From the NCBI GenBank assembly GCA_015064685.1, contig SVRT01000002.1:90768-154767 (forward strand): a stretch of 64,000 bases of DNA, written 5' to 3'. Shown here piece after piece: positions 1 through 42,062 of the stretch (position 1 is the stretch's first letter; each line of letters opens with the position of its first letter). A model generated the notes under the pieces. It did not search any database. It was not told where the DNA came from and saw only the letters and a list, made by a program, of their open reading frames with translations. Source of the DNA: Oscillospiraceae bacterium (GTDB taxonomy: Bacteria > Bacillota > Clostridia > Oscillospirales > CAG-272). The translations under genes were made by a program, and so were the position numbers.

Positions 1-327
1 GAAATCGAAGATAAGGCAATCAATTCCATTTACAGTGTTTGTGCCTACAGAAGAGAGAACAGCGTCTTGTGTGCCGAATATATAGCTGTCACTCGGCGAA
101 GTCCACACGAGAAGCTTAACGTCATCCTGACCGCCTATATTGCCTACAGATACAGCGTATTTTAAATAAATTGACTCGCTGAATGAAAGGTTTGTGGCAA
201 CGATATCCAGTTGCGGTTCTGCAGACCTTGATGAATCTATGGCTAATGCAGAGAAAACAATGACCAATGAAATCATCAAAAGAATCAAGGCAACTGAAAA
301 CATTCGACCATAATTTTGTTTTGTCAT
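1..327 (-). CDS. Partial secreted/surface protein (N-terminus only, runs off the left edge)
   Basis: Reverse-strand open frame from ATG at 327 to the edge: MTKQNYGRMFSVALILLMISLVIVFSALAIDSSRSAEPQLDIVATNLSFSESIYLKYAVSVGN...; signal peptide-like start, no stop in window, absent from ORF track. Confidence 0.75.
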   Translation of the reverse strand, partial: MTKQNYGRMFSVALILLMISLVIVFSALAIDSSRSAEPQLDIVATNLSFSESIYLKYAVSVGNIGGQDDVKLLVWTSPSDSYIFGTQDAVLSSVGTNTVNGIDCLIFDF

Positions 328-2728: not shown

Positions 2729-4569
2729 TGGTTGACAGTAAACATCAATGGAAAGCTTGGATATATCTGTTGCCGGCTATCATACTGCTCCTCATATTCA
2801 CAGTATGGCCCATTATCAACACGGTAGTTACAGCGTTCATATATGATGTAGAGTTCAACTTAGCTGCCATTCAGGTTGAAGAGACAGAAGACGGATGCCG
2901 CTTCTACCGTGCAGACGAAAAGGGCAACAAGTACTACATCAACGCCTCGAAAAATGACAAGGGCGCTATTGAATTGCAGTATTCATCCAAGGCTGATAGC
3001 TTATTCGTTTATAACGAGGAGCTTGGCGTTTGGACGACCGCTGTCGGTGAAAAGACATATTTCCTTGGCGCAGATAAGGAATCCGACCTCAACGTCATCG
3101 AGCTTACAGAAGACGTTGCTAATAAAATTGGAAACTCAATTTATCCCGCAGGCATATTTGCAGACGTTCCCAACAATCTTATTACGAAGGATTTTGTTTC
3201 CAAAACCGGATATAAGATGGGTGTTTTCAAAGGCTTGCCTGAGGCATACGTTTACGTTAATAACGTAACAAGTGACGGCTATATCAACGTAACCAATATA
3301 CTTGATGATGCCGCAAAGATCTGGCCTGAGACCGTTAAGGTAGACGGCGTGCGCGGATATAAGCTCTACGTTGAAGATGCAGAGCTCGTTAAGCATTACC
3401 TTACCGTTGTCGCGAGCGATGACGGCAAGCTTGAGCTTCAGTATGCTGACACAACAGAGAACATCTTCATTTACAATAAGGAAAGCAAGGCATGGACTTG
3501 CACTATTGAGGATGCTGTGTATTATCTTGCTCTCGACAGTGAGACAAACCACCTCGGTCTTTTCACGCTTGCTGACGTCGCTCAGGAGGGTATGCCCTCT
3601 CCCGTTACGTTCTATATGCACAGAGGTACTGCTTCCGAGGCAAAGGAGGTCTCCTCCCTTATTCAGGATAACGCATACCGTATAGGTGCCCACCGTAACG
3701 CAAATGGTACGCAGACATACCTCTCTGATTCTGCCTCTGAAAATGCAGGATTGAGACTCACAACAAGTGTTTCAGGTGACGCTGTATCAAAGGTTGGTAT
3801 GCATAACTTCGTTAAGGTCCTGACCGATGAGGGAAGTGACTTTATGGTTTGCTTGAAGAATACACTTATTCTTACAGTCATCACCGTACCGATCTCCACA
3901 ATACTCGCGCTTCTTATCGCGGTTGCGCTTAACTCGATCAAGCCTCTTCAGAAGCTCCTTCAGACTATCTTCTTCCTTCCTTACGTAACAAACTCCATTG
4001 CTATAGGAATGGTATTCGCGGCAATGTTTAATATCGTAGGATTGAACTCGGCTAATGAGTCTGTCGGTATCATAAATAACATTCTCGGTGTCTTTGGCAT
4101 TGAGCGTGTTAACTGGATCAACCAGGGTGCTCCCGCATGGGCAAGCTTTACCGCGCTGATCATTTACATTGTTTGGAATGCGCTTCCTTTCAAGATCCTC
4201 ATTCTTCTTGGAGGACTTCAGAGTATCAACAAGCAGTATTACGATGCTGCGAAGGTTGACGGCACACCCAAGTGGCGTGTTCTTCTCAGAATTACAGTTC
4301 CGCTCCTTTCTCCTATGCTTACCTACACGGTAATTACCAGCTTTATCGGCGGATTCAAGGAATATTCCAGCGTCGTCGGTATCTTTGGTGATGGAAGAGC
4401 AGTTCCCGGCGGTGCAAATATGAATACCATCGTCGGACACATTCAGGATCATCTTACTATTACCCGTGACTACGGTCTTGCAGGTGCAGCTGCGCTGATG
4501 CTCTTTGCGATCATCTTCGTTGTTACCATGATCAACCTCTGGGTAAGTAAGAAGAATACTCATTATTAA
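2728..4569 (+). CDS. MalF-type sugar ABC permease with a ~310 aa insert between TM1 and the core
   Basis: TM1 WIYLLPAIILLLIFTVWPIINTVVTAF, then a soluble beta-rich insert, then permease core with EAA-like motif YYDAAKVDGTPKWRVLLRITVPLLSP. Confidence 0.9.
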   Translation: MVDSKHQWKAWIYLLPAIILLLIFTVWPIINTVVTAFIYDVEFNLAAIQVEETEDGCRFYRADEKGNKYYINASKNDKGAIELQYSSKADSLFVYNEELGVWTTAVGEKTYFLGADKESDLNVIELTEDVANKIGNSIYPAGIFADVPNNLITKDFVSKTGYKMGVFKGLPEAYVYVNNVTSDGYINVTNILDDAAKIWPETVKVDGVRGYKLYVEDAELVKHYLTVVASDDGKLELQYADTTENIFIYNKESKAWTCTIEDAVYYLALDSETNHLGLFTLADVAQEGMPSPVTFYMHRGTASEAKEVSSLIQDNAYRIGAHRNANGTQTYLSDSASENAGLRLTTSVSGDAVSKVGMHNFVKVLTDEGSDFMVCLKNTLILTVITVPISTILALLIAVALNSIKPLQKLLQTIFFLPYVTNSIAIGMVFAAMFNIVGLNSANESVGIINNILGVFGIERVNWINQGAPAWASFTALIIYIVWNALPFKILILLGGLQSINKQYYDAAKVDGTPKWRVLLRITVPLLSPMLTYTVITSFIGGFKEYSSVVGIFGDGRAVPGGANMNTIVGHIQDHLTITRDYGLAGAAALMLFAIIFVVTMINLWVSKKNTHY

Positions 4570-4586
4570 GAAAGGAGGAAACAGAC

Positions 4587-5633
4587 ATGAAAAACAATGC
4601 ACAAGTTAAAGAAAAGTCAAAGGGAATGCAGGCACGTGATATTCAGCAGGTCGCTACTTCTCAGAAGTGGAGAAAAGTACTGTCGAACGTTATTACATAT
4701 ACCTTCCTTGGTATAATGGCTCTTATCGTGCTTTTCCCGTTCTACTTCATGATCATTTCCTCTTTGAAGTCGTTGGATGAGTATAGACTTCCTGTTCCCA
4801 CGCTTATTCCTCAGTCCTGGAAATTCCAGAACTATACGGATATCCTTATCCCCCGCGAGTGGGCTCTCGAAAACGGACTGGGTCATCTTATTTCCGCAGA
4901 TGCCGCAAGTAACGATTTCGACCTTTTCACCCTTCTCAGAAACACAATGTTTGTAGGAATTGTTTCTACTATTCTTTCTTTGGTTATTACAGTTCTTTCC
5001 GCATTCGCTTTCGCAAGATTGAAGTTTAAAGGTAAAAACGCTCTCTTTGCAGCTCTCCTCGGAACAATGATGATTCCCGGTGAGCTCTTCACGATCACAA
5101 ACTACGCAACCGTTATGACTAAGGACGGTTGGTTCCCGACGTTCTTTAATAACCTCGGAAATATGTTTGGTCTGTTTGGTGAAGATTTCCGTATTCCTAT
5201 GATGGATGCAAGCTATGCAGCCCTCATAGTTCCGTTCCTTGTAAGTATCTTCTACATATATCTGTTAAGACAGAATTTCCTGCAGATACCCAATGAGCTT
5301 TACCTCGCCGCTAAGGTCGACGGAACAAGTGATTTCAAGTATCTTTGCAAGGTTATGATTCCCTTGGCACTCCCCACTATCATTTCTATTACTATCTTGA
5401 AGATGATGGGTGCTTGGAACTCGTATATGTGGCCTCGACTCGTTGCAAACGATGAGGCTCACCGTCTTATCACAAACGGATTGCGTAATGCCTTCAACGA
5501 CGTATCGGGTAACACCGACTATCCCCGCCAGATGGCAGCAGTCGCGCTTGTTTCGCTCCCGCTCTTCCTTGTATTTATCTTCTTGAGAAAGTACATTATG
5601 AAGGGTGTAAGCCGTAGCGGTATCAAGGGTTAA
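4587..5633 (+). CDS. MalG-type sugar ABC permease
   Basis: EAA-like motif LYLAAKVDGTSDFKYLCKVMIPLALP, six-TM pattern, AAAGGAGG upstream. Confidence 0.92.
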   Translation: MKNNAQVKEKSKGMQARDIQQVATSQKWRKVLSNVITYTFLGIMALIVLFPFYFMIISSLKSLDEYRLPVPTLIPQSWKFQNYTDILIPREWALENGLGHLISADAASNDFDLFTLLRNTMFVGIVSTILSLVITVLSAFAFARLKFKGKNALFAALLGTMMIPGELFTITNYATVMTKDGWFPTFFNNLGNMFGLFGEDFRIPMMDASYAALIVPFLVSIFYIYLLRQNFLQIPNELYLAAKVDGTSDFKYLCKVMIPLALPTIISITILKMMGAWNSYMWPRLVANDEAHRLITNGLRNAFNDVSGNTDYPRQMAAVALVSLPLFLVFIFLRKYIMKGVSRSGIKG

Positions 5634-5702
5634 TCGCTTTTACATTTTTGTAAGGCTTAACACAAATAAAAAAAACAAACAAAAAAATGGAGGAAAAACA
5701 CC

Positions 5703-7256
5703 ATGAAAAAGATTCTTGCATTCATTTTGTTGTTCGCTCTTACTGTAGGTTGTTTCGTTTTTGTCGGATGTGACGTTAACGTTAACGTTAATGACGACGA
5801 AAAGGGTACAAGCGCTGAAACAGACGCTCCCGCTGAAACAAACAAGGGTAACACAGGCGATGACAACATCAAGGAAACCACCGGCGGTTCCGATGTAACT
5901 CCCGAGGAAACCGATCCTGATAACGGCGACGATGACCTTGAGAGTGATGAGGAAGGTTACGACGGAAGCGCAGTAACCGTTGTATTCTATCACACAATGG
6001 GTAGCAACCTGTCTGACGTTCTCAATATCTATATTGCAGAATTCAACAAGCTTTACCCCAACATTACCATCGAGCACCAGCAGGTGGGTGGTTATGACGA
6101 CGTTCGTGAGCAGATCAGTACTGAGATCACAGTTGGTAACCAGCCCAACATCGCGTACTGCTATCCCGACCACGTTGCTATGTACAACGTAACTAAGGCA
6201 GTTGTTCCGCTTGATTCTCTCATTGATAGCCTTGCTATCGTTGAACGTGCTGACGGAACTGAGGAGATGATGGGTCTTTCTCAGAAGCAGATCGATGATT
6301 TCATCGAGGGTTACTATAACGAAGGTAAGCAGTTTGGCGACGGTAAGATGTACACACTTCCTCTCTCCAAGTCAACTGAGGTTCTTTACTACAATAAGAC
6401 ATTCTTTGATCAGCACAATCTCACTCTCCCCACAACATGGGATGAGATGAAAGCTCTTTGCGCTAAGATCAAGGAGATCGATCCTAACTGCATTCCTCTC
6501 GGATATGACAGTGAGTCCAACTGGTTCATCACAATGTGCGAGCAGTACGGTACACCTTACACAAGTGCAACCGGCGAGCACTTCCTCTTCAATACTCCTG
6601 AAAACGTTGCATTCGTAAAGGAATTCAAGAGCTGGTACGATAAGGGCTACTTCACAACTCAGGAGCTCTTCGGTGCATACACATCCGGACTCTTTGTTTC
6701 TGAGACAAGCCCCAAGAGCTACATGTCCATCGGTTCTTCCGCAGGTGCAACTCACCAGCGTCCTACAAAGGGTAACGATGGTAAGTACCCCTTCGAGGTA
6801 GGTATCGCAACTATTCCTCAGGTTAATCCCGAAGATCCTAAGGTTATTTCTCAGGGACCCTCTCTCTGCATCTTTGATAAGGAAAACAAGCAGGAAGTTT
6901 ACGCTTCTTGGCTCTTCATGAAGTTCCTTACAACTAACATTGACTTCCAGGCAGAGTTCTCAATGGTTTCCGGTTACGTTCCTGTTCTTAAGTCCGTTGC
7001 AGAGCACGAGTACTACAAGAGCGCATTCCTTGATAAGGCAGACGGCGGCGACTATATCGCAGCTCTCTCTGCAAAGGTTTGCTTGTCTCAGGTAGATGCA
7101 TACTACACATCTCCCGCATTCAACGGTTCTTCCGTTGCTCGTGACCAGGTTGGTCTTCTTATGCAGAACTGCTTCGTATTCACAGGCGATAACATCGACG
7201 AGCAGATCCAGAAGGCATTCGAGGATGCTGTTGCTAAGTGCAAGTACCTCTCTTAA
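5703..7256 (+). CDS. Extracellular solute-binding lipoprotein (family 1 type)
   Basis: Lipobox VGC, acidic linker, AVTVVFYHTMGSNLSDVLNIYIAEFNKLYPNITIE; downstream of two permeases. Confidence 0.9.
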   Translation: MKKILAFILLFALTVGCFVFVGCDVNVNVNDDEKGTSAETDAPAETNKGNTGDDNIKETTGGSDVTPEETDPDNGDDDLESDEEGYDGSAVTVVFYHTMGSNLSDVLNIYIAEFNKLYPNITIEHQQVGGYDDVREQISTEITVGNQPNIAYCYPDHVAMYNVTKAVVPLDSLIDSLAIVERADGTEEMMGLSQKQIDDFIEGYYNEGKQFGDGKMYTLPLSKSTEVLYYNKTFFDQHNLTLPTTWDEMKALCAKIKEIDPNCIPLGYDSESNWFITMCEQYGTPYTSATGEHFLFNTPENVAFVKEFKSWYDKGYFTTQELFGAYTSGLFVSETSPKSYMSIGSSAGATHQRPTKGNDGKYPFEVGIATIPQVNPEDPKVISQGPSLCIFDKENKQEVYASWLFMKFLTTNIDFQAEFSMVSGYVPVLKSVAEHEYYKSAFLDKADGGDYIAALSAKVCLSQVDAYYTSPAFNGSSVARDQVGLLMQNCFVFTGDNIDEQIQKAFEDAVAKCKYLS

Positions 7257-7281: not shown

Positions 7282-8757
7282 ATGAATAGTTTTAAGAAAA
7301 TTCTAGCTGTTGTAATGCTGGCATGCATCCTTCTCGGATGCATGGCAGCATGCGACACAAAAAAAGAAAATGATGGCGATAAGGAATCCCAGAAGATAGA
7401 ATCTACTGAGACCGAAAGCACACAGGGCACAGAAGTGCCCGAAACAGAAGGAGCTTCTGATCCCGAGAGCGAGTCAGCAAATGAGACCGATCCCGAGACA
7501 GATCCCGAAACAGAAGAGCCTGAATTCGTCGACTATGCCGACGAGCTCAAGCTTGATATGAATTCAGATACATTTAAGCAGACTGTTACAGTCAAGTCTT
7601 TTATTGACGGTGACACAACACACTTCAACGTTCCCACTTCCGTTATTGACACGGGTGTTCTCAAGGCAAGATATCTCGGTATCAACACCCCTGAGTCCAC
7701 CGGTAAGATAGAAGAGTGGGGAAAAGCCGCTTCTAACTTCACCAAGGAGAAGCTTTCATCCGCAACGTCGATCATAGTTGAATCCGACAATGCAAATCTG
7801 AATGCTGACTCCACCGGTGACAGATATCTCCTTTGGGTATGGTACAAGCCCGCAGGCTCTGATGAATACCGTAACCTTAATATCGAGATATTGCAGAACG
7901 GTCTTGCTATTGCATCGAATTCCGCTAACAACCGTTACGGAACAACATGTATGGCAGCTATTAACCAGGCAAAAGCATTCAAGATGGCTGTTTATTCCGG
8001 GCAGAAGGATCCCGATTTCTATTACGGCGAAGCTCAGGTCATTACTCTTAAGGAGTTGCGTTGCAATATCGAAGAGTACAACGGTACCAAGGTTGCGTTC
8101 ACAGGTATCATTACTGTGAACTATAACAACGGTGTTTACGTTGAGAGCTTTGACGAGGAGACAGGCATTTGGTATGGTATCTACGTATATTACGGATTCG
8201 GTATGAGTGGATCCGCGCTTGAGATCCTTACCGAAGGTAATGAGTCAAGAATCGTTGGAACCGTATCCTACTACGAAACCGGTGGAACGTATCAGGTTTC
8301 AGGACTTACGTACCGTGTAATGAATCCCGATGATCCGTCCAACATCAAGAAGCTTAGCGATGGACATTCTCCCGTATATCTCCCGACCACTCCCGACCGT
8401 TTTGTTAACGGAAAGGTTGACATTACTTTCACTGATGACGAGGAAACACAGACAACCGAAACATATAATTATGCTGAGGTCGCTATCAACTCCTCGATCA
8501 GCATGGAAGGTCTCAAGGTCAAGAGCGTATACACAACTACAACTGAGTCTAGCTACGGTGCAATGACTCTTACGTGTGAGGCGAACGGCGTTACAGTTGA
8601 CGTCCGCACAGACGTTTTCCGTGATGAGAACGGTGAATTGATAACTGCTGATTACTACCAGGGTAAAACCATTAACGTAAAGGGAATTATCGATTATTTC
8701 TCCGGAAATCATCAGATCAAGGTATTCTTACCTGAACATATTACAATAGTGGAATAA
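7282..8757 (+). CDS. SNase-like (thermonuclease) lipoprotein with C-terminal OB-like domains
   Basis: Lipobox LGCMAAC; VKSFIDGDTTHFNVP, KARYLGINTPES, STGDRYLLWVWYK, NLNIEILQNGLAIA match the staphylococcal nuclease fold. Confidence 0.82.
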   Translation: MNSFKKILAVVMLACILLGCMAACDTKKENDGDKESQKIESTETESTQGTEVPETEGASDPESESANETDPETDPETEEPEFVDYADELKLDMNSDTFKQTVTVKSFIDGDTTHFNVPTSVIDTGVLKARYLGINTPESTGKIEEWGKAASNFTKEKLSSATSIIVESDNANLNADSTGDRYLLWVWYKPAGSDEYRNLNIEILQNGLAIASNSANNRYGTTCMAAINQAKAFKMAVYSGQKDPDFYYGEAQVITLKELRCNIEEYNGTKVAFTGIITVNYNNGVYVESFDEETGIWYGIYVYYGFGMSGSALEILTEGNESRIVGTVSYYETGGTYQVSGLTYRVMNPDDPSNIKKLSDGHSPVYLPTTPDRFVNGKVDITFTDDEETQTTETYNYAEVAINSSISMEGLKVKSVYTTTTESSYGAMTLTCEANGVTVDVRTDVFRDENGELITADYYQGKTINVKGIIDYFSGNHQIKVFLPEHITIVE

Positions 8758-8791: not shown

Positions 8792-11700
8792 ATGAAAAGA
8801 CTAATCGCAATTTGTCTTGCTATGGTACTTTGCCTTGCGGTATTCGTATCATGTGCAGACATCCAGGAAGGTGGCACCGAGACAGGTGACACAAACGCAG
8901 GTAACGAGACAGTTGTTGAGACTGATCCTGTTACAGAGCCCGCTGAAACAGATCCCGAGACAGATCCTGAGACAGATCCTGAAACTGATCCTGAGACTGA
9001 TCCCGAGTCTGCTCCCGAGTCTGAGACACCTGAGGTTGAGTATGATGCAGAGGCTGCTGTAGCGTTCATTAAGAACCTCTACAGAGATGACCTTCTTCTC
9101 AACAACGTTACAGCAAGCGACTTCACAGTAGTTGCAACTGTTCCTGTTGGAACTGTTACATACACTGTTGAGTGGTCTGTTGATAACGAGCTTGTTAAGG
9201 CTGTTAAGGGTGAGAACGAGTGGACTATCGACGTTGACGAAAAGGCAGCAGAGGCGCATACATATAAGCTCACCGCTACTGTTATTGCCGGCGACGGATC
9301 CACAGCTTCCATTTCCTTTGACCTCAATGTTCCCAAGTACAATGTTGCTTCCTTTGAAGAGTACATGGCTGCAGAGTCCGGTGCAACAATCACTATTGAG
9401 GGTATCGTTGTAGCAATGAATGGTAAGAGTGTTGGCAACTCCAGAAACCACCTCTTCCTCGCAGACGCATCCGGCAAGGGTGGTTACTACTGCTACCAGC
9501 TCGATTCTGACCCCGTAGCTGAGGGTGTTAAGATCGGTATGACCGTTTCCGTAACTGCTGTTGTATCTCCTTACTCAGGCATGCAGGAGACAAAGGGCGG
9601 TACATTCACTATCGTTGACGAGACTATCAAGACTGTTGAGCCTCTCGACATTACTGAAAAATTCGCTTCCGGCGCAGATCTTAAGAACTATGTTGGTCTC
9701 GCTGTAACCGTCAAGGGTGTTACCATTGCCGGTCAGGAGCTTGGTGGAACAAGCGAATACCTTAAGTTTGAACTTAATGGCAAAACCTCCTATATCAGAA
9801 CATACATCACAGATTTCCCCACAACTCTTTCTATCGTTAAGGATGAAAACGGTTCTGTAAGTAGCGCTGATAAGACCGCTATCGATGCAGCTCATGCAGA
9901 GAAGTTCGGCTGGACAGCAAATGCAACCGGTATCCTTGTACTCTACAGCGGCAATCCTTACCTCATTCCTATGGGTGTTGATTGCTTCGAGTATCTTGAG
10001 CTCGTAGAAAAGACTCCCGAGGAAAAGATTGCAGCAGAGCTTGATGCTCTTACTTTCAGCACATCCTTTACTGCTGATACAGTTGTTGATCTCCCTGCAG
10101 TTGGTACATACTACAACGAAGTAACCCTCGCATGGGCATCCGATAAGGACGCAATTGCTATCGCAGATGGCAAGGCAACTGTTACTGTTCCTGATGAGAC
10201 TGTTATAGTTAAGATTACTGTTACTGCTACATGTGGCGATGCAACAGCTACAAAGGAGATCGAGGTTAAGGTTTCCAAGGCAGTTACTACAATCGCTGAC
10301 GCTATTGCTATAGGTTCAGCTCAGGCTCACAATACTTACACTACCGGCAAGTATATTGTTGCAGGTATCATTAAGGATGTTTACGGCGAAGCATATGGCA
10401 ATATGCACATCGTTGACGAGCTTGGCAACGAGTTCACCGTATACGGAACCTACATTGACGGAACCAAGTATGGTGATTACACCGGTGCAAAGCCTGTTGC
10501 AGGCGACTACATCGTAGTTATCGGTGCTCTCGGTCAGTATAACGGTACTGCACAGATGAAGAACGCTGATCTTGTATCATTCATTACTCCTACATCCATT
10601 AAGGATGCTGCTGATAAGGGTGCTGCTATGACACAGGACACCTTTACCAACGAAAAGTATGTTGTAACTGGTACCGTTACCGAGATTAAGAGTGACAAGT
10701 ACGGAAATATGACTATTGTTGATGCAGAGGGTAATTCCATTTACCTCTACGGTCTCTACAGTGCAGATGGTACAACAAGATACGACGGAATGACTGTTAA
10801 GCCTGCAGTTGGTGATACAGTAACAGTTCTTGGTGTTGTTGGTAATTACAACGGCGCGCAGATGAAGAACTCTTGGCTCGTAGCTCATACAGTAGCTTCT
10901 TCCGATAACCCCGATCAGGGTGGTTCTGGTACACCTGATGATGGTGGCGATGAACCCACAACACCCGATACCCCTGCTACAGGCGTAGTTGATCCTGTTG
11001 TTGGTACTGCATACAAGTTCGGTATGGTACAGGGCAATCTTGATAACGCTGTTTACTACCTTGCAGGTGGCATGAACGGTTACTATATGGAAACAACCAC
11101 AGATGCTTCTGCTGCTCTCGATGTATATCTTGAGACAACAGAGGGTGGATACTATATGTACTGCATGGTTAACGGTGTAAAGACTTACATCAACTTTGTT
11201 GTAAGTGGAACACATGTAAACGGTGCTTACGAGACCACTGCTTCTACTGTATACACTTATAACGAGACAAGCAAGACGGTTATCGCAATCGTTAATGATA
11301 CTGAATACTGGCTTGGAACAAGAAATGACAAGACCTATACAACAATGGGTCCCTGCGCAGTTTCCTATAACGGATTCTACGGTCAGTTCTACGTATCCGG
11401 CGGTGCAACTACAGATCCTACTCCCGATCCCGATCCCACTCCCGATCCTGAGCCTACACCTAGCACAGGTCTCGTAGTTGGAACCGGTTACACCATTTCC
11501 GCAGCTAACGCAAACGGTCTTCTTTACTTCGATGGAACTGTCTCCAGCGGTCGTTTCAACGGTTCTAATGATGCTTCTAAGGCTGCTGTGGTTTACGTTG
11601 AGAATGCAACAAATGCAGGCGAATATCTTCTTTACTTCTTTGTAAATGGTACAAAGAACTATGTTGTTATGGAGGATAAGTCTGCAGGTGGTTCTTTTGC

Positions 11701-11854
11701 TACTGATGCAGCAAATGCAACCGTGTTTGAGTGGAACGCAGAGAAGAATACTCTCGCTGTTGCTGAAGATTCTAACAACCGTGCATTTGGTGTTGGCGCA
11801 ACAAGCACATACTCAAACTTCAGTGCTTACGATCTTACCGGCGCATATAACTGA
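8792..11854 (+). CDS. Large lipoprotein: TDPE-repeat linker, OB-fold-like repeats, Ig-like segment, two C-terminal beta-rich modules
   Basis: Lipobox VSCAD; (ETDPE)n linker; repeated KYIVAGIIKDV...GNMHIVD / KYVVTGTVTEI...GNMTIVD; AAGGAG upstream. Confidence 0.8.
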   Translation: MKRLIAICLAMVLCLAVFVSCADIQEGGTETGDTNAGNETVVETDPVTEPAETDPETDPETDPETDPETDPESAPESETPEVEYDAEAAVAFIKNLYRDDLLLNNVTASDFTVVATVPVGTVTYTVEWSVDNELVKAVKGENEWTIDVDEKAAEAHTYKLTATVIAGDGSTASISFDLNVPKYNVASFEEYMAAESGATITIEGIVVAMNGKSVGNSRNHLFLADASGKGGYYCYQLDSDPVAEGVKIGMTVSVTAVVSPYSGMQETKGGTFTIVDETIKTVEPLDITEKFASGADLKNYVGLAVTVKGVTIAGQELGGTSEYLKFELNGKTSYIRTYITDFPTTLSIVKDENGSVSSADKTAIDAAHAEKFGWTANATGILVLYSGNPYLIPMGVDCFEYLELVEKTPEEKIAAELDALTFSTSFTADTVVDLPAVGTYYNEVTLAWASDKDAIAIADGKATVTVPDETVIVKITVTATCGDATATKEIEVKVSKAVTTIADAIAIGSAQAHNTYTTGKYIVAGIIKDVYGEAYGNMHIVDELGNEFTVYGTYIDGTKYGDYTGAKPVAGDYIVVIGALGQYNGTAQMKNADLVSFITPTSIKDAADKGAAMTQDTFTNEKYVVTGTVTEIKSDKYGNMTIVDAEGNSIYLYGLYSADGTTRYDGMTVKPAVGDTVTVLGVVGNYNGAQMKNSWLVAHTVASSDNPDQGGSGTPDDGGDEPTTPDTPATGVVDPVVGTAYKFGMVQGNLDNAVYYLAGGMNGYYMETTTDASAALDVYLETTEGGYYMYCMVNGVKTYINFVVSGTHVNGAYETTASTVYTYNETSKTVIAIVNDTEYWLGTRNDKTYTTMGPCAVSYNGFYGQFYVSGGATTDPTPDPDPTPDPEPTPSTGLVVGTGYTISAANANGLLYFDGTVSSGRFNGSNDASKAAVVYVENATNAGEYLLYFFVNGTKNYVVMEDKSAGGSFATDAANATVFEWNAEKNTLAVAEDSNNRAFGVGATSTYSNFSAYDLTGAYN
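8938..9015 (+). repeat. 12-bp period repeat encoding the TDPE linker
   Basis: gagacagatcctgagacagatcctgaaactgatcctgagactgatcccgag. Confidence 0.85.
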
Positions 11855-11919
11855 GGTCAGTTCACTGCAGTTGAAGCAGAATAAGCTTTTTATTAGCTTT
11901 TATTCTAGAATATAATTTG

Positions 11920-11947
11920 AACCGCACCTTCGGGTGCGGTTCTTTTT
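11920..11947 (+). terminator. Rho-independent terminator
   Basis: ACCGCACC-TTCG-GGTGCGGT followed by TCTTTTT. Confidence 0.85.
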
Positions 11948-11959: not shown

Positions 11960-11988
11960 TTGACTTTATGTACAAAATATGGTAGAAT
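11960..11988 (+). promoter_or_regulatory. Sigma-70-like promoter
   Basis: TTGACT-17 nt-TAGAAT upstream of the 12020 ORF. Confidence 0.6.
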
Positions 11989-12019
11989 AGGATGATAAGT
12001 AAAACGAGGAAAAAGGTGT

Positions 12020-13264
12020 ATGAATAATTTCTTTTTGAAAAAGAGTTTAGCATTAATTCTTGTATTAATGCTGTTATTTACAGTTGCTTGTGATTCTAAA
12101 GTTGATAATAATAATCAAAGTACAACAGGGGCTGAATCCAACGTTGAAACGTCATCGGATATAGAGACGAATACAGAAGAGGAATCACTCTCTGAATCCG
12201 ACAGATCAAGTGAAGAGATAACCGAAGAGCAAACAGAACCGGAAACAGAGTCACAGTCATCAACAGAGACAGAGGAAGAGACTACCGAAAATATTAGCGA
12301 GACTCACACAGAATCAGATACTGAAACAGTATCTGAAACAGAGAGCGAAAAAGAGACCGAAACACTTGATGCGGTAGATGAAGCAAGCAGAGACGAATTC
12401 TATGGGGATAGCGATCCCGCAGACAGCTATGAAGAGGCAATCGATCGCGCAACAAGAGGTGAAATAGCAGGAGCAGATACAGTACCGGATCAGGCGCCGA
12501 CAATTTCAGAATACAGACCCTCAGTTGACGGTATATATGTAAAAAACGTACATCCTTATTATATTGATGAGAACACTTACGTAGTTGTAAATGCATACGG
12601 ACAAGAGGTTTTAAGAGTTTACCGCGGCGGTGGATATATCACCCTCGAGGAAGTCGCGGCGTACATTTACGCTTTTGGTGAGCCTCCCGCAAATCACTCG
12701 TCAAGCAAAAGAACTAAGCCCAAGGATAGCATCTGGGGAGAGTATCTTCGCGTCAATAATACTAAATTCAGCGGAAATACAACCAGGTATCCTTATGAGC
12801 CCGTTCTTCCTCGAATAAATGGGTGCGGGGGAGATCTCCAATACTGGGAGATGGACATCGGCACTACCGGTAACGATTGCGATCCTTCATACTCGCCAAG
12901 AATATACAATAACGGTACTACGATCGTACGCGGTGCATCGCGTATAGTTTATACCTGGAATGATCTGAATAACAACGGAATAACAGATTCTACTGATATC
13001 GTTTACGTATTCTATACTTACAATCACTACAACGATTTCCAAGAGTATCTGAATTATTTCGGCGGTTGGGGAGATATGTTCGGTAATATCACCGGCGGCG
13101 GAGAAATATCCAGCAAAACGAACTATAATCCCACTCCCTACGTTCCAGTCTATAACGGATCACTTGTTGATAATAACACAACCGAGACAACAAATGATGC
13201 TTACATCATTTCCGTTATTCTTCCCACGGATCTTTATTATATGAACAAGTACAGAATTGCATAA
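12020..13264 (+). CDS. Lipoprotein with a C-terminal barnase-family (microbial ribonuclease) domain
   Basis: Lipobox VACD, E/T/S linker, then YITLEEVAAYIYAFGEPPAN ... FSGNTTRYPYEPVLP ... YWEMDI ... RGASRIVYT ... NHYNDFQEYL, following barnase motif order with E, R-x3-R and H conserved. Confidence 0.72.
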   Translation: MNNFFLKKSLALILVLMLLFTVACDSKVDNNNQSTTGAESNVETSSDIETNTEEESLSESDRSSEEITEEQTEPETESQSSTETEEETTENISETHTESDTETVSETESEKETETLDAVDEASRDEFYGDSDPADSYEEAIDRATRGEIAGADTVPDQAPTISEYRPSVDGIYVKNVHPYYIDENTYVVVNAYGQEVLRVYRGGGYITLEEVAAYIYAFGEPPANHSSSKRTKPKDSIWGEYLRVNNTKFSGNTTRYPYEPVLPRINGCGGDLQYWEMDIGTTGNDCDPSYSPRIYNNGTTIVRGASRIVYTWNDLNNNGITDSTDIVYVFYTYNHYNDFQEYLNYFGGWGDMFGNITGGGEISSKTNYNPTPYVPVYNGSLVDNNTTETTNDAYIISVILPTDLYYMNKYRIA

Positions 13265-13300
13265 CAAAAAATGCTTGCCTTAATCAAGGCAAGCATTTTT
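13265..13300. terminator. Bidirectional terminator between convergent genes
   Basis: aaaaatgcttgcctt-aatc-aaggcaagcattttt. Confidence 0.88.
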
Positions 13301-14008
13301 AATTGCGTTATATACAGAGAACTCTGTTCTGTCGTTTTGCATTGGGGTAATTGATATTAAATTATGATTTACTGCCACGGCATCAAGTTCAATATCATTC
13401 TGATCCTTGTCGGGGGTATAATAGCCCTTCTGTGCGTAAAGATTGTTTCCAACGGGTATAAATTCATCAGCGAAATAAGCGCGTCCCTGACGTGTAATCT
13501 TAACTCCATCAGCTACAGGGGGAATATTGATATTGTATATAGGATTGATATTTAAAAGATTGTTGTTTACAATGTAAGCATATGCTTTATCGAAATGCTC
13601 GGCGGCTGCTTCAAGAGTATCGGGAAAGGTGGAGAGAGCCAAAGCCTTATGATCGAGCGCGGCAGCTTCGAATATTGCACCGACTGTTCCAGAATAAACA
13701 ATATCTTTTCCGAGATTTGCCCCCTTATTTATGCCCGAAAGCACGAGATCATATTTTCTCTTCATACCGAGAATACCGTATCTTACACAGTCGGCAGGCG
13801 TCGAGTCAACAGAATATGCCTCAACACCGTAAAGATCTGATCTGTCAAGCACTTCAATTGGACGGACAAGCTCGATTCCGTGACCTTTTCCGCTTTGCTC
13901 GACCTTAGGTGCCACTATTGTGACTTCACCAAGCTTTTTCGCCCATTCAACAAGCAGTTTTATGCCAAGGGCTTCAATTCCGTCATCGTTTGTAATAAGA
14001 ATTCTCAT
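13280..14008 (-). CDS. surE: 5'/3'-nucleotidase SurE
   Basis: MRILITNDDGIEALGIKLL, SGINKGANLGKDIVYSGTVGAIFEAA. Confidence 0.95.
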   Translation of the reverse strand: MRILITNDDGIEALGIKLLVEWAKKLGEVTIVAPKVEQSGKGHGIELVRPIEVLDRSDLYGVEAYSVDSTPADCVRYGILGMKRKYDLVLSGINKGANLGKDIVYSGTVGAIFEAAALDHKALALSTFPDTLEAAAEHFDKAYAYIVNNNLLNINPIYNINIPPVADGVKITRQGRAYFADEFIPVGNNLYAQKGYYTPDKDQNDIELDAVAVNHNLISITPMQNDRTEFSVYNAIKNACLD

Positions 14009-14985
14009 AACCAGCCCTCGTGTGTGGATTTGTATTCCTTAAGAAGAGCATCGGCCTCGGAAAGAAGCTTTTTTATCTCCTTTTTGTTGAGAAGGGTAGC
14101 ACCGCATGCAGAAGCATGTCCTCCGCCGCGATATCTCTCGGCAATTTCGTTTACGTGAAGGAAACGGGAGCGAAGTCGCACTCTGATTGTGCCGTCGGGA
14201 GAGTCAATAAATGCGACCCAGATAAGAGAGCCTTTAATTGAATCAAGATAAGAGACCGCGGCACTTGCATTTTCCATTGTCAGATTGAATTTTTCCTTGA
14301 TAGCATCTGTAATGTGAATATATGCGACTCCGTTTTCGGTTATCTTCATCTTTTGGTAAACAAAGGACTCAAATTTGAAAAGCTCGAAATCCTTCATATA
14401 AAGATTTGCAAAAATCCATTCGGTATCAATGTTCTGTCGAAGCATAAGGCCCGCGAGTCTCATAGTCTCATCCGACACGTCGCGGAAGCGGAAACGACCC
14501 GAGTCTGTAACCATTCCGGTGTAAATATACGTTGCAGCCTCTTTATCTATAACGAGTTTATCGCTTAAAGCCTCATAAAATGCCGCAACCATTTCGCAGG
14601 TTGATGATCTGTCCTCTTCGACCCACTCAAGAGTACCGTAAGATTCAAGCGGAATATGGTGATCAAGCTTTACCAGCTCTTTACAAAGAGCATACTTTTG
14701 ATTTGATATACGCTTTGCGTTACCGGTATCAAGAACCATACCGAGAGAGGATGCATACATCGAATCATTGATCGGCTTATCCTCCTCTCCGAGAAAAGCA
14801 AGATATTCGGAAAAATCATCATTCTGAAGATAGATATCTTTTTCAGGAAATGAAAGCTGAAGGATTCTCTGAAGACCCTTGGTAGAGCCTACCGCATCTC
14901 CGTCGGGTCTGAAATGACGGAAAATAATGATCCTGTCATATTCCTTTATTTTATTGTATATTTCTATAATCTTTTCTTTGCTCAT
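14005..14985 (-). CDS. nrnA: DHH/DHHA1 phosphoesterase (NrnA-like)
   Basis: RHFRPDGDAVGS, VLDTGN, LDHH, GGGHASACGATL. Confidence 0.87.
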   Translation of the reverse strand: MSKEKIIEIYNKIKEYDRIIIFRHFRPDGDAVGSTKGLQRILQLSFPEKDIYLQNDDFSEYLAFLGEEDKPINDSMYASSLGMVLDTGNAKRISNQKYALCKELVKLDHHIPLESYGTLEWVEEDRSSTCEMVAAFYEALSDKLVIDKEAATYIYTGMVTDSGRFRFRDVSDETMRLAGLMLRQNIDTEWIFANLYMKDFELFKFESFVYQKMKITENGVAYIHITDAIKEKFNLTMENASAAVSYLDSIKGSLIWVAFIDSPDGTIRVRLRSRFLHVNEIAERYRGGGHASACGATLLNKKEIKKLLSEADALLKEYKSTHEGWL

Positions 14986-14987
14986 TA

Positions 14988-15923
14988 TTACACCTCAGTG
15001 ATTGCGTTAAGATCGGCAAGCATGCTCATCGCCTCGTCGCGGTTTTTGAGTGTTGCTCCACTTGCCTTTGCATGACCGCCACCACCGTATTTAACGGCGA
15101 TCGGGTTAATATTATACTTGCTTGAACGGATCTCACAGAGAACACCTGCGTCGGTTTCGGTAAAGTTTACCCAAACATCAACTCCGCGAATATCAGACAT
15201 CGTGCTGACCATTCCGCGAGAGATAGAGAAGGTATCAACGTTGTACGAGGCAAGCTCGTCCTTAGTTGTATAAATATAAGCGACGTTTTTCTCTGTGAAA
15301 TTAATTTTAAGAACAAACTGAGCTCTCAAACGAATGTAGCTAAAATCATCCGCATAAAGATTTGCGTAAATATCATTCGTATCAAATTTCTGCTCCATCA
15401 AAAATGACGCGAGTCTAAAGGTATTGGAGTTTGTCGAGTCGTAACGGAAGCGACCGGAATCGGTTACCATACCTGTGTAGAGCGATTTTGCCGCAAGGGA
15501 ATTGAGCTTGAGTGAACACTCTATTGCGAATTCTGCGATAAGTCCGCAGCAGCTTTCGTAAGTTGTGTTACGAATCTCAATATCAGTAAATTTTTCGCAG
15601 AAAATGTGATGGTCTACACATGCAGTAAGCTCCGCGGTTGCGTAACGGGCATCGCTGATAAGGGCAGTTGCAGACGTGTCTAGAACAATTGCAAGAGCAC
15701 CGTTGTAGTATTCATCGGGAATATCGTCGGTTTTGGAGTCCTCCATAAAGCCGAAGCGAACCGAAGAATCTCCAACAGCATAAACCTCTTTGCCGGGGAA
15801 ATTTTCCTTGATAATGTTCTTGAGTCCTATCTGACTTCCAAGGGCATCGCCGTCAGGGTTTGAGTGACGGTGGATTATTATTCTATCATATTTCTTTATT
15901 GCCTCTATAAGCTGTTCAAACAT
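14988..15923 (-). CDS. Second DHH/DHHA1 phosphoesterase (NrnA-like paralogue)
   Basis: RHSNPDGDALGSQ, VLDTSA, VDHH, GGGHAKASGATL; start moved to ATG 15923 after GGAG (track start 15935 is TTG). Confidence 0.87.
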   Translation of the reverse strand: MFEQLIEAIKKYDRIIIHRHSNPDGDALGSQIGLKNIIKENFPGKEVYAVGDSSVRFGFMEDSKTDDIPDEYYNGALAIVLDTSATALISDARYATAELTACVDHHIFCEKFTDIEIRNTTYESCCGLIAEFAIECSLKLNSLAAKSLYTGMVTDSGRFRYDSTNSNTFRLASFLMEQKFDTNDIYANLYADDFSYIRLRAQFVLKINFTEKNVAYIYTTKDELASYNVDTFSISRGMVSTMSDIRGVDVWVNFTETDAGVLCEIRSSKYNINPIAVKYGGGGHAKASGATLKNRDEAMSMLADLNAITEV

Positions 15924-15938
15924 ATCTATCTCCAAAAA

Positions 15939-17150
15939 TTATTTTTTTAAATGCTCAAAGTATCCCTTATATTCAATATGATAATCCGAGTCAGGGAAAA
16001 GGAACTGATGAAGCTCCACAAAGTAATCGTCCGTCATACTTGAAATAAAGTCAACTACGATTTGATTCTTTTCGGTTTCAATGTAAGGCGAGATCCTTTT
16101 GTAAGGTGTTTTTTCAACGAAAGCAATGTGCTCGGAATATATCGGTGAATCCTCGTTACCTTTTTCCAGATCATACATACAACGCTCATATATATCAGCC
16201 ATCATAGGCTTGATAGTTACGTCAAGCCTTGCAGAGGATACTGTCTTGTTATATATCTTTTCATAATTGTCGCGCTTTGACTGACGCAATGCTTCAAAGT
16301 GCTTCTTGTCCATTTTAATGGATCTTTGTCCGTAGCTGTTTTCAATAATATTGACCACAAGATTGTTAATTATCTCTGAATTGATCGATCCGATCTCCTC
16401 GTTGAAGAAATCCTTCTCGTTGACGTTCCTCGTTCTTATCGCATCCTGTCTGTCTTTTCCGAGATAAGCAATAATATCCGAAATGCGAACGACTGCCCCC
16501 TCAAGTGTGCAGGGGAGAAGCGCATTTGCTGTTTTTGTGTCCCATAGACATTCCTCCATAAGCTTGTCAAACTCTTCGAACGTCGGAACTGGAACGGGTA
16601 TATATTCTTGAAGCTCAAGCTCTCCGTTGTGACTTGCTATATCGTGAAGCGTCTGAAGGCTTATATTATGCGGAAAGAGCTTGTCAAAGACACGTACGGA
16701 CTGAATGTTATGATAAAAATGCTTTCCGCAGTGAGCAACGAACAACTCATTGAGATATTTTTCGCCTGTGTGAGCAAACGGTGGATGCCCCATATCGTGA
16801 CCGAGAGCAATCGCTTCAATAAGATCGGTATTTAAGTGAAGAGCGCAACCGATAGTGCGTGCTATTCTTGAAACGAGCTGTACATGAAGACTTCTTCGTG
16901 TCAAGTCATCATTTTTATATAAAGAATAAACCTGGGTCTTATCTGAATATCGGTTGAAATACGGGCTGTGCATTATTTTGTCGATATCATGCACGAACGG
17001 TTGACGCCAAATGGTTGATGTGTCTTTTGCAACCTTGTAGCGTCTTGTGACACAAGCGTTGTCGAAGCCAACCTTTAAGTAAGTTCCGTTTTCGCTTTCG
17101 TATTCCATTTTTTTTGTAAGTTCGGGGGATACTACCTCGAATTTAGGCAT
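15939..17150 (-). CDS. dgt: HD-domain dGTPase-like deoxynucleoside triphosphate triphosphohydrolase
   Basis: SPYFNRYSDKTQVY, DDLTRRSLHVQLVSRIARTIG, ALGHDMGHPPFAHTGE. Confidence 0.87.
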   Translation of the reverse strand: MPKFEVVSPELTKKMEYESENGTYLKVGFDNACVTRRYKVAKDTSTIWRQPFVHDIDKIMHSPYFNRYSDKTQVYSLYKNDDLTRRSLHVQLVSRIARTIGCALHLNTDLIEAIALGHDMGHPPFAHTGEKYLNELFVAHCGKHFYHNIQSVRVFDKLFPHNISLQTLHDIASHNGELELQEYIPVPVPTFEEFDKLMEECLWDTKTANALLPCTLEGAVVRISDIIAYLGKDRQDAIRTRNVNEKDFFNEEIGSINSEIINNLVVNIIENSYGQRSIKMDKKHFEALRQSKRDNYEKIYNKTVSSARLDVTIKPMMADIYERCMYDLEKGNEDSPIYSEHIAFVEKTPYKRISPYIETEKNQIVVDFISSMTDDYFVELHQFLFPDSDYHIEYKGYFEHLKK

Positions 17151-17280: not shown

Positions 17281-19029
17281 TTACTTCCATCCACCGTTTT
17301 TGATAAATTCAGCAAGCAGGTCTCTTGCATACACACCATCGTCGAATCTTACGATCTCTGTCAGGCGATTGGAAGAATATGTAGAGGTATAAGTGTCAGT
17401 TATCAAATAATAAGTGGCATTGGGATCTATGCTGTTTTTGATGCTTTCGCCGTATTCACCGCAGTAAATGTAGTAATTTGAGTTCGATGTCTCTAAAAAC
17501 TTCTTATTAAGATCAGAGCCCTTTATCGAACAGAGAACAAGCTGATTATCGAAGGGAAGAAGCGACTGAAGATCGGAATATTTCACCTGTCCTGCATCAA
17601 GATCGTACGGACTTCTGGTGGATATGAATCCGCCTCCGAGAACGATATCATACTGATCTCCGAAAAGCTCAATACCTCTTTGGTAGTAAAGCTGAGCTAC
17701 AGTAGCCTTGATTTGAGACGAGTATTTTGCAGACGAGATCGTTCCGAGTACTTCATCCCCCTTTGCTATCTGGTCTTTATATTTCTCAAGAAGCTGATCG
17801 CGCAACGGATCTCCATCAAAGCTTGAATAACGTGAGGACTCAACGAATTCTGCTACACCGACAAAGGAGGTGAAGGTTACGGAGTTTATAGCGATCTCGA
17901 CGTGTGAAATACCCTTGTTTTCGCCTCCGTTCTGAAGATGGTAAACACCGTATTCATCTATAAGCACATATCTTTGATGTGTATGTCCCTCAAAAACGAG
18001 ATCAACGTATCCGTTTGAAAGCTCTGTATCGTAGTAGCTTGCAAGCTGCGCGCTACTCACTCTCGTGGGTGAATATTTGTTTTGTCCAAATCCGTCGTGA
18101 ATTGAATATACAATAAAATCAACACCTATAGAACGTAATCTTTCTGATTCGGCTTTAACAAGAGCAGTAAGATCATTTCCGACCTTGAAATAAACGGCGC
18201 TTGATTTATCGGCTGAAATTGAGGAATAGCAATCGCCAATTGCGCCAATTATTCCGACCTGGATTCCGTTACACTCAACGATTACAGATGCCTCGCAGTA
18301 ATCTACTCTTTGGTTTGTCTCACGGTCGTAGATATTAATAGCGAGAAGAGGGAATTCTGCAAGCTCGCAGTTGTCCTCAATGATCTCCTCACCCCAATCG
18401 TACTCGTGGTTGCCAAGAGTCATTGAAACAAAATCAAGCTCGTTCATCCACTCTGTGATAATAAATCCGTTTGTCAGATTTGATTCGGAGCTACCTTGCC
18501 ACATATCTCCGCTTGAAAGGAATACGGAGTTATCATCTGTATTCAGTGTGCTCTTTAAATAGGCAGTAAGCTCGTCAACACCGGAGTTTGAATCAGTGTC
18601 CTTGAATTTACCGTGAAGGTCGTTCAATGCATAGAAATCAATACTGATAATTAGGGAAACGTTACATACATCACATTCACCGTCGTCGTTTTGATCTGTG
18701 TGTTTATCACAGATGTCACTTGTATCGGTTTCTTCTTCAGTTGTTGTACCGTCATTTTTATCAGTATTGTCTTCTGAATCAAGTTCAGTTGTTTCTTTAG
18801 TTATAGAATCAGAATCTGAGCTTTCGATTTCAGGTGCGGTTTCTTCTACCGCAGGGCTATCGGAAGTTTTTTCCGATTCAATGTCCTGTTCGGTAGATAT
18901 GTAATCTTGTGTTTCTTGTTGCGTTGCATCGGTTTCTTTTTCTGCGTTTGTTAAATCACATCCGCAAAAGAGAGATATCAAGAGTAAAAGTGAAAGAGCG
19001 AATGATAATAATTTTACATTATATTTCAC
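17281..19029 (-). CDS. 5'-nucleotidase/UshA-like metallophosphoesterase lipoprotein
   Basis: Lipobox FCGCD, acidic linker, ALNDLHGKF, SSGDMWQGS, LGNHEYDWG, C-terminal 5'-nucleotidase-type domain. Confidence 0.88.
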   Translation of the reverse strand: MKYNVKLLSFALSLLLLISLFCGCDLTNAEKETDATQQETQDYISTEQDIESEKTSDSPAVEETAPEIESSDSDSITKETTELDSEDNTDKNDGTTTEEETDTSDICDKHTDQNDDGECDVCNVSLIISIDFYALNDLHGKFKDTDSNSGVDELTAYLKSTLNTDDNSVFLSSGDMWQGSSESNLTNGFIITEWMNELDFVSMTLGNHEYDWGEEIIEDNCELAEFPLLAINIYDRETNQRVDYCEASVIVECNGIQVGIIGAIGDCYSSISADKSSAVYFKVGNDLTALVKAESERLRSIGVDFIVYSIHDGFGQNKYSPTRVSSAQLASYYDTELSNGYVDLVFEGHTHQRYVLIDEYGVYHLQNGGENKGISHVEIAINSVTFTSFVGVAEFVESSRYSSFDGDPLRDQLLEKYKDQIAKGDEVLGTISSAKYSSQIKATVAQLYYQRGIELFGDQYDIVLGGGFISTRSPYDLDAGQVKYSDLQSLLPFDNQLVLCSIKGSDLNKKFLETSNSNYYIYCGEYGESIKNSIDPNATYYLITDTYTSTYSSNRLTEIVRFDDGVYARDLLAEFIKNGGWK

Positions 19030-39286: not shown

Positions 39287-39321
39287 TTCACATACATTTT
39301 ATTTAGTTGGAGGAAAACACC

Positions 39322-41853
39322 ATGAAAAAAACCAAAAGCAAAATCGGTCTCTTATCACTGATCGGACTTACGTTAATGCTTAGCATAATAATTGCTATGG
39401 GCATTATCTCATCGAGTGCAACCGATGAAACAAGCGGATCAATATTGGATGATGTCGATATACCACCTGTCGCGTATCCTCATCAGGACACATCTTCCTT
39501 TGATGTTGACATGAATGCATTGTATTCATGCTTCTCCGAAACACTTGAATTAGATTATGCTGACGGAATAGTCAGAATAGAAGATATGGAATACGCAGAA
39601 GTTTATTATAATTCTCCTAACGGGTTTTTTCCGTTAGAACTTGTGGATGGATATTGGACAGCCGAGATTGGGGAAAGAAGAAACGATTATTCAAACGGTG
39701 ATTACGAAATAGTCAATATAACTTCTTCAAAAAATAAAAACGGCATCTATTGGCGCATAAACTACATCGACGGGAAATTAGATCCCTATATTAACTTTGT
39801 TAAATACGAGCCATACATTGAAATGATCATTAATGCCAAATCAGATTCATTAAGATTTCTCTATATGATTGATGAATATAACGTTGATGATACATATTCA
39901 AAGGGTGTTCTGCAAACCCACAGTGTAAGTAACAATAATGTCGAGCCTAGTAAAACTGTTTATTATAATCCGGATAAAACAGCAAAATACGCTACGGTAT
40001 ATTTAAACGGATATTACTACTATTTCCCGGGCCAGGGCTGGTCAAGTAATTGGTCAATATTCACCCCTTGCGATGCGCCTGCAGGATATGAGGACGCAGA
40101 CGAAATATACTTTACGTCAGATTGTCCCTCATTTTTCCCCTGTGAGCATCCTGAATGGTCTGAGGCGAGTTGTACTTTGCCCAAAACATGCATGAAATGT
40201 GGCGAGACCGAGGGCGAATCTCTTGGCGGTCACGTCTGGGGAGAGCTTGGAAGCGAAAACAGATCTATCTGCACGGTTTGCAATGAAAAAATAATCCCTG
40301 ATTTTGATTTTATCGTTGGAGCATACAATGATCTCAGCGAAGCTGGATTCCAGTCACAAAAAATCAGAGATGCGCTTCCTGCTGAAATCGAGGTTAAATA
40401 CGAGAATGGCAAGTATATGGTAAAAGACTTCGGTGGTGTCACCGCAACCGGATTCACCGACATCGATTATATTAGAACCGATCTCACACTTGTCGACGGA
40501 TACTGGATATACGAGGTAAGCGAAGAAATATACAATAGCGATGACATATCGATTTACGTGGAGTTTTTCGGCGAGGATGATATTTGGGAAATTGAGTACT
40601 GTGACGGAATTTTCTACGGTGCTATTCAATTGGTAGATAGGACACCCAACAATTATAAATGTATTCTTATTTACCTTGACTACGATTTAGTTGAAACCAT
40701 TTACGTGGTCGGAGAAAGGGAATACAGAGACGAATATGTGAATGGCATATTCAACGCTCAACAAGTTTTTTCCGAAGTTGATGGTTACGGCGTATATGTA
40801 GAATACGATTCAACCGGCAACATCGAATATGTGAGTGCATATGGTGATGATCATAACTTCTATTACTACTATCCCGAATACGGCTGGAAGAATACACCGG
40901 TTAGCTACGATGATCCTCAATACTCCTGCGATGCCCCGAAGGGATTTGAAAACGCAGACGTTAACTTCTTTATGAGCGTAGCCCCCTTCACACTGGGCTG
41001 CACCCATGAGGAATATACCCCTGCTAACTGCACTAATCCCGAAAGATGTGCAGTATGCGGAAGAGCAAAAGATGGAACCGAAGCTCTTGGACATACAGTT
41101 GTCACTGTAGAGAAGAAAGAGCCCTCTTGCTCCGGTGTTGGGTATTCGGAGTGGACTTATTGCTCGGTTTGTGAAGAAATACTTGAAGAACCTGATGAGA
41201 TCCCATCGCTCGGACATGACATCGTCACCGATGCAGCAGTTGCTCCCACATGCACAGAAACAGGGCTTACCGAAGGCTCTCACTGCACAAGATGCAGCGA
41301 AGCAACCGTAGAGCAGACCGAGGTTCCCGCGCTCGGACATGACAAGGTAACCGATGCAGCAGTCGCTCCCACATGCACGGAAACAGGCCTTTCAGAGGGA
41401 TATCATTGCTCAAGATGTGATGAAATTATCACAGAGCAGACCGAGGTTTCCGCGCTTGGACATGACAAGGTAACCGATGCAGCAGTCGCTCCCACATGCA
41501 CGGAAACAGGTCTTTCAGAGGGATATCATTGCTCAAGATGTGATGAAATTATCACAGAGCAGACCGAAGTTCCCGCACTTGGACACGATTACAAGGACGC
41601 AACCACTTCAGCTCCCAAGACCTGCAAGTTATGCGGCCATACAGTAGGTGATCCGCTTCCCGTAGAGTCCGAAACAGATGCGGCAGACGAGACCGAGAAG
41701 ACAGAGGAGAGCACAAAAGCCGAGGCGACCAAAAAGCCCGATGATAAGAAAGAGAAAAATAATAACGGATGCAAATCAAGCATCGGCTTCGTTTCTATAT
41801 CTGCTGCAGTTATCTTGGGTGCGATCTGCATCTTCAAGAAGAAAAAGAACTAA
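39322..41853 (+). CDS. Secreted/surface protein with duplicated N-terminal module, CxxC/GH repeats and C-terminal TM anchor
   Basis: Signal peptide; GAGGA before ATG 39322; repeats APTCTETGLSEGYHCSRCDEIITEQTEVPALGHD; terminal TM followed by KKKKN. Confidence 0.85.
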   Translation: MKKTKSKIGLLSLIGLTLMLSIIIAMGIISSSATDETSGSILDDVDIPPVAYPHQDTSSFDVDMNALYSCFSETLELDYADGIVRIEDMEYAEVYYNSPNGFFPLELVDGYWTAEIGERRNDYSNGDYEIVNITSSKNKNGIYWRINYIDGKLDPYINFVKYEPYIEMIINAKSDSLRFLYMIDEYNVDDTYSKGVLQTHSVSNNNVEPSKTVYYNPDKTAKYATVYLNGYYYYFPGQGWSSNWSIFTPCDAPAGYEDADEIYFTSDCPSFFPCEHPEWSEASCTLPKTCMKCGETEGESLGGHVWGELGSENRSICTVCNEKIIPDFDFIVGAYNDLSEAGFQSQKIRDALPAEIEVKYENGKYMVKDFGGVTATGFTDIDYIRTDLTLVDGYWIYEVSEEIYNSDDISIYVEFFGEDDIWEIEYCDGIFYGAIQLVDRTPNNYKCILIYLDYDLVETIYVVGEREYRDEYVNGIFNAQQVFSEVDGYGVYVEYDSTGNIEYVSAYGDDHNFYYYYPEYGWKNTPVSYDDPQYSCDAPKGFENADVNFFMSVAPFTLGCTHEEYTPANCTNPERCAVCGRAKDGTEALGHTVVTVEKKEPSCSGVGYSEWTYCSVCEEILEEPDEIPSLGHDIVTDAAVAPTCTETGLTEGSHCTRCSEATVEQTEVPALGHDKVTDAAVAPTCTETGLSEGYHCSRCDEIITEQTEVSALGHDKVTDAAVAPTCTETGLSEGYHCSRCDEIITEQTEVPALGHDYKDATTSAPKTCKLCGHTVGDPLPVESETDAADETEKTEESTKAEATKKPDDKKEKNNNGCKSSIGFVSISAAVILGAICIFKKKKN
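41212..41580 (+). repeat. Tandem 123-bp (41 aa) coding repeat, the last two copies nearly identical
   Basis: GGACATGACAAGGTAACCGATGCAGCAGTCGCTCCC starts at 41335 and 41458; a more diverged copy precedes them. Confidence 0.88.
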
Positions 41854-41989: not shown

Positions 41990-42018
41990 TTGCACACTGT
42001 ATGCGTAAATGATAAAAT
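41990..42018 (+). promoter_or_regulatory. Sigma-70-like promoter
   Basis: TTGCAC-17 nt-TAAAAT upstream of the TasA-type gene. Confidence 0.6.
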
Positions 42019-42062
42019 GTTTCTATCCAGCATCCAAAATACATTTTGTGGAAGGATTTGTT

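Follow-up and report, generated by a model that had tools for sequence, protein, structure and literature searches.

Protein folding and toxin-inhibitor pairing have a model enzyme in barnase, which is usually considered together with barstar. Barnase and binase (RNase Ba, PF00545) are guanyl-specific microbial ribonucleases. The RNase Sa family of Streptomyces belongs to the same superfamily. Its members are smaller and give a weaker structural match to the model described below than barnase (Z about 5 over 87 residues). Within the same order as the source genome, a homologous catalytic domain is found in canonical barnase-barstar pairs (loci L021, L022 and L117) and in a broken pair on contig C34 of the source genome. 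Calcium loops of the Dx[DN]xDG type occur outside EF-hands, and a strand-loop-strand context is known for such motifs (PMC3123361). That paper names no barnase and no ribonuclease of any sort.

The window, i.e. the whole 64-kb stretch of DNA analysed, encodes a predicted barnase-type ribonuclease lipoprotein (12020..13264, +; 414 aa, ATG start). The predicted fold is common to barnase over 98 of 109 residues, and E73, R83, R87, H102, Y103, D75 and the guanine-loop E60 of barnase have counterparts. Compared with barnase and binase, the protein adds a lipoprotein form, an acidic linker, an N-terminal beta extension, a 16-residue insert after the Glu strand, an EF-type loop in the next hairpin and a 30-residue C-terminal extension; an adjacent barstar is absent. 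In the open-access papers searched, no description was found of a barnase branch combining a calcium-type loop, two terminal extensions, a lipoprotein form and a barstar-free setting. We read the product as a lipid-anchored barnase-type endoribonuclease, probably guanyl-preferring, which would serve the scavenging of extracellular RNA (probability about 0.8).

A purine-rich, Shine-Dalgarno-like sequence, AGGAAAAAGG (12007..12016, +), lies in front of the start codon. Further upstream, a promoter-like site (11960..11988, +; TTGACT-17-TAGAAT, a TG preceding the second hexamer) matches the consensus in 10 of 12 positions; the region as a whole shows no excess of such sites. An intrinsic-terminator-like hairpin of ten pairs followed by TTTTT (11919..11942; a consensus match, not proof) is located between the gene for an upstream OB-fold lipoprotein and the ribonuclease gene. 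Because this strong terminator-like hairpin and the promoter-like site separate the upstream neighbour, the ribonuclease gene is probably a transcription unit of its own, under its own promoter and without a shared operon with the SNase gene described below. An inverted repeat directly after the stop codon (13266..13299), read from the sequence and absent from the scan listing, overlaps the convergent gene for SurE at its end and is a possible two-way terminator.

The translation starts with a predicted signal peptide, whose hydrophobic segment ends in the lipobox FTVA-C24 (12020..12091, +). The lipobox pattern is present in 68 of 85 relatives and visible by eye in most of the others. An acidic, Ser/Thr-rich linker of about 134 residues follows (residues 25-158; 12092..12493, +), with 34% Asp plus Glu and 31% Ser plus Thr. 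The lipobox and this composition bear out the acidic-lipoprotein architecture proposed in an earlier, sequence-only reading of the gene. In other relatives, the domain scan placed Big_2, OB-fold-like or 5'-nucleotidase domains at the position of the linker. NCBIfam matches of the window protein fall almost entirely in the signal peptide and the linker and were discarded. Assignment to a defence system was rejected, as the only PADLOC matches arise from the low-complexity linker. The part predicted to be folded comprises a conserved N-terminal beta extension (residues 160-203; 12497..12628, +; pLDDT 94-97), the barnase-like domain (residues 204-344; 12629..13051, +), delimited by structural alignment to 1ban_C and by profile alignment, and a conserved C-terminal extension NYFGGWGDMFGNITGGGEISSKTNYNPTPYV (residues 345-375; 13052..13144, +), seen in the model and in relatives. 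Both extensions are missing in barnase.

Single-sequence searches detected the kinship weakly or not at all. The window protein matches PF00545 with 18.3 bits (E 0.0035), below the gathering cut-off of 24 bits, a value set by curators and no biological feature. A PDB search with this sequence missed barnase and gave just one weak match, to a calcium loop. In the family as a whole, the signal goes well beyond chance: 76 of 77 aligned relatives match PF00545, and an hhalign comparison with 21 canonical barnases from related genomes, aligned as one profile, reached a probability of 97.9% (E 3e-13, 108 columns, 34% identity), a statistically significant homology to the barnase-type superfamily. 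The canonical set itself matches barnase structures at E 1e-43. Since the members tested score mostly below the standard Pfam cut-off, genes of this kind probably carry a "hypothetical" annotation.

An AlphaFold2 model built from 77 sequences has a mean pLDDT of 84.7 and a pTM of 0.82 and is poor only in the last 30 or so residues. It aligns to barnase 1ban_C with Z 8.5 and an rmsd of 2.1 A over 98 of 109 residues, although a best Z of 7-8 is possible without kinship and such a value does not by itself decide the matter. The aligned range (model positions 45..185, i.e. protein residues 204-344) agrees with that of the profile alignment (45-186). In the structural alignment of the Foldseek candidates, barnase and binase occupy ranks 1-33 (Z up to 8.5), with RNase Sa next; Foldseek alone returned nothing at E < 1, with RNase Sa as best match (E 1.3). 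The combination of structural Z and profile-profile result makes a strong case for barnase fold and kinship. The barnase-family call of the sequence-only reading thus holds in both profile and model comparisons, which support a place for the window protein in the barnase-type microbial ribonuclease superfamily, with a predicted catalytic domain of known kind.

Two segments of the domain correspond to gaps in the canonical barnases, one of 16 residues (287-302) and one of 12 residues around 313-324 in the hhalign alignment. The first insert, CDPSYSPRIYNNGTTI (12878..12925, +), lies between the Glu and Arg strands; its Y296, N297 and G299 are invariant among relatives. The second, DLNNNGITDSTD (residues 315-326; 12962..12997, +), is an EF-hand-type, calcium-loop-like insert in the hairpin that connects the Arg with the His strand. 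Once Asp, Asn and Glu are counted as equivalent, its conservation becomes apparent: the share of these residues at loop positions 1, 3, 5, 9 and 12 is 0.93, 0.96, 0.93, 0.98 and 0.99 in 85 relatives, compared with 0.01-0.15 at the other positions except position 11 (0.69). The oxygen ligands expected of a Dx[DN]xDG-type loop are thus in place, and the calcium-loop-like insert reported earlier for the single protein is a family-wide trait. A strict version of the EF-loop pattern fits 65 of 85 relatives; shuffling the loop letters gives a mean of 0.01. Matches to EF-hand Pfam models are weak (EF-hand_6 in two relatives, EF-hand_1 in one). The loop sits between predicted strands 149-156 and 171-174 (model numbering) and so shares the strand-loop-strand context and the ligand spacing 1, 3, 5, 9, 12 with the loops outside EF-hands (PMC3123361); most family members differ from these in lacking Gly at position 6. 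Residues 315-326 are regarded as a putative, probable Ca2+ binder. In about 13 of 85 members, scattered over the tree, the pattern is absent or degraded.

Cysteines are found at position 269 in 78 and at position 287 in 76 of 85 relatives. Pairing of the two had been suggested. Exactly one of them is present in 14 members and neither in one, and the losses are uncorrelated (Fisher p 0.56, 85 relatives), so that an obligatory C269-C287 disulfide was rejected.

Genome contigs contain at least 135 relatives. Of the best 80, nearly all belong to Clostridia from ruminants and other gut sources; the few others come from Bacilli, Erysipelotrichaceae, Acholeplasmatales and a Lachnospiraceae bin. Matches occurred in 21 of 196 related genomes, three of them weak, in 4 of 295 genomes of an order-level draw, and in the window genome only among 398 genomes drawn across the phylum. 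The distribution is narrow and patchy. The distant relative L019 (1444-2661, -) passes the PF00545 gathering cut-off (25.0 bits). Its long loop lacks calcium ligands, its C-terminal extension is family-like, and no barstar was found nearby. L019 was rejected as an intermediate form, its branch being very long and its tree placement unsure.

A barstar profile built for this analysis recovers the barstar beside canonical barnases. It detected none in the 64-kb window, in agreement with the earlier impression from the open reading frames, and none in the loci of 80 relatives (up to 12.7 kb). Canonical barnases in related genomes of the order, which lack the inserts, differ in this respect: by coordinates, 20 of 23 adjoin a barstar (Fisher p about 1e-18, indicative only because the sequences are related). 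Eight of the ten family-carrying genomes in the barstar-scanned set, some of them incomplete, had no barstar at all. The source genome has a single barstar, located on contig C34 and not in the window. It is intact and stands beside the genome's own canonical barnase, a fragment interrupted by TGA, near a capsid-like gene (L109 2055-2619, G000); barnase fragment and barstar are perhaps a prophage remnant.

The scavenging ribonuclease might be refined, compatibly with that reading, by a dependence of its activity on extracellular Ca2+. Under such gating the enzyme would be inactive inside the producing cell, and barstar would therefore be unneeded: in this barstar-free branch, the EF-hand-type loop would permit activity only in the calcium-rich outside and so substitute for a protein inhibitor. 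The idea is attractive in view of the conserved ligand positions, the placement of the loop in the hairpin between the strands bearing R304/R308 and H336, the absence of barstar beside all 81 loci and its complete absence from most of the scanned family genomes. It is weakened by the roughly 13 members that lack the full ligand set and likewise have no barstar nearby. Moreover, Sec export in unfolded form could alone protect the cell. Gating is thus a tentative and on balance unlikely proposal; either unfolded export or calcium gating may be the reason for doing without barstar.

The neighbouring genes point to nucleic acid catabolism. Upstream and on the same strand lie, in this order, the genes for a solute-binding protein, a thermonuclease-type SNase lipoprotein (7282..8757, +; PF00565, E 1.3e-9), conserved together with the ribonuclease, and a lipoprotein in which the domain search found an OB-fold-like and an atrophied Ig-like domain (8792..11854, +). 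Downstream, a convergent set encodes SurE, two DHH phosphoesterases and an HD-domain phosphohydrolase (13280..17150, -; domain search and synteny). It is followed by a 5'-nucleotidase-type lipoprotein (17281..19029, -; Metallophos and 5_nucleotid_C) and then by thymidine kinase. Of 60 testable loci, 35 have SurE/DHH genes at most 5 kb downstream; an SNase gene lies upstream in 24 of 56. The linkage is retained in some loci despite a changed order or orientation (L034, L050, L070, L095, L096). Relatives in Bacilli and Acholeplasmatales occur without these neighbours, and the linkage derives partly from common descent among related genomes. In the sister pair L050 and L055, the ribonuclease domain is located C-terminally in a 5'-nucleotidase protein encoded by a single open reading frame (3964-6669, 902 aa, and 3928-6675, 916 aa, respectively), in the order 5'-nucleotidase, OB-like stretch, ribonuclease domain. 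The 5'-nucleotidase domain of these fusions is homologous to the product of the window gene 17281..19029. Confined to one sister pair, the fusion may be a single event.

Several further observations concern other proteins of the window. In the SNase lipoprotein (7282-8757, +), the usual calcium-ligand Asp of RxxxxDTPE reads Asn (ARYLGINTPE); the gene order around it recurs in relatives. The segment HTDQNDDGECDVC of the 5'-nucleotidase lipoprotein (17281-19029, -) is a Dx[DN]xDG-like stretch. A ribosomal-protection-type GTPase (60363-62978, -), TetM-like at its N-terminus by eye, has a C-terminal segment resembling an NYN-type nuclease domain (MVIVDGYNLIY). A very large, secreted-looking protein of 1527 aa (42009-46592, +) carries repeated CxxC-type motifs and Glu/Thr/His-rich repeats; the same kind recurs at 39307-41853.

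A role as interbacterial toxin, i.e. a surface-held, polymorphic-toxin-like effector directed against the RNA of competitors, has to be weighed against these data. Barnase domains are known as tips of polymorphic toxins, and canonical barnase-barstar pairs occur in related genomes. The window gene, however, adjoins no immunity gene, its product has a lipoprotein architecture, and a scan of 18 longer relatives detected no toxin-delivery domain. In sequence, the catalytic domain is uniform and not exchanged; the neighbouring genes serve nucleic acid catabolism, and the fusion partner is a nucleotidase. A toxin function is accordingly considered improbable.

The motifs that the sequence-only reading had compared with barnase are all present in the translation of 12020-13264, in barnase order. 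Residues of barnase are given in barnase numbering (E73, R83, R87, H102). By hhalign, E277 (12848..12850, +) aligns with the catalytic E73, R304 and R308 (12929..12943, +) with R83 and R87, and H336-Y337 (13025..13030, +) with H102-Y103, as had been proposed for the Glu, the Arg-x3-Arg pair and the His. Each is conserved in 86 of 86 sequences, as is D279. Their clustering in space follows only from the alignment to barnase and is to that extent a prediction. The place of the guanine-loop residues R59-E60 is taken by Y259-E260 (12794..12799, +), with Y259 in 85 and E260 in 84 of the 86 sequences. The loop thus retains a counterpart of Glu60 and has Tyr in place of R59 and Pro in place of N58. 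A catalytically inactive, RNA-binding surface protein would fit these two replacements, the lack of an exact K27 counterpart (K230 lies one place off) and the purely predicted status of the activity, but it is the least probable reading, given that Glu, both Arg, His and Tyr are invariant across divergence down to about 55% identity and that canonical relatives adjoining barstar also carry Tyr at the R59 place.

Sequence homology, the fold prediction, conserved residues, the loop pattern, gene linkage, the fusion and the lack of an adjacent barstar are results of the analysis. For the lipid-anchored scavenging ribonuclease, we infer from them RNase activity with guanine preference, Ca2+ binding, a surface location and a nutritional role, which may be combined as follows. 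The protein would be exported and lipid-anchored, the acidic linker holding the catalytic domain at a distance from the membrane. RNA cleavage would proceed by 2',3'-cyclic transesterification with E277 as base and H336 as acid, R304 and R308 assisting, and Y259-E260 would confer the preference for guanine. The calcium-type loop, located at the hairpin tip between Arg strand and His strand, is a probable extracellular Ca2+ binder that would stiffen the active-site sheet. Together with the SNase lipoprotein, the 5'-nucleotidase lipoprotein and the neighbouring oligonucleotide and nucleotide hydrolases, the ribonuclease would convert extracellular RNA and DNA to nucleosides and phosphate. The bacterium would then feed on RNA broken down outside the cell.

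A conserved barnase branch that is predicted to be surface-located, has no inhibitor gene next to it, bears a calcium-type loop near the active-site strands and is linked to genes for nucleotide hydrolysis would offer a simple test of how cells tolerate a potent RNase of their own. Little-known Clostridia of ruminants and the hindgut may, moreover, use RNA as a nutrient.
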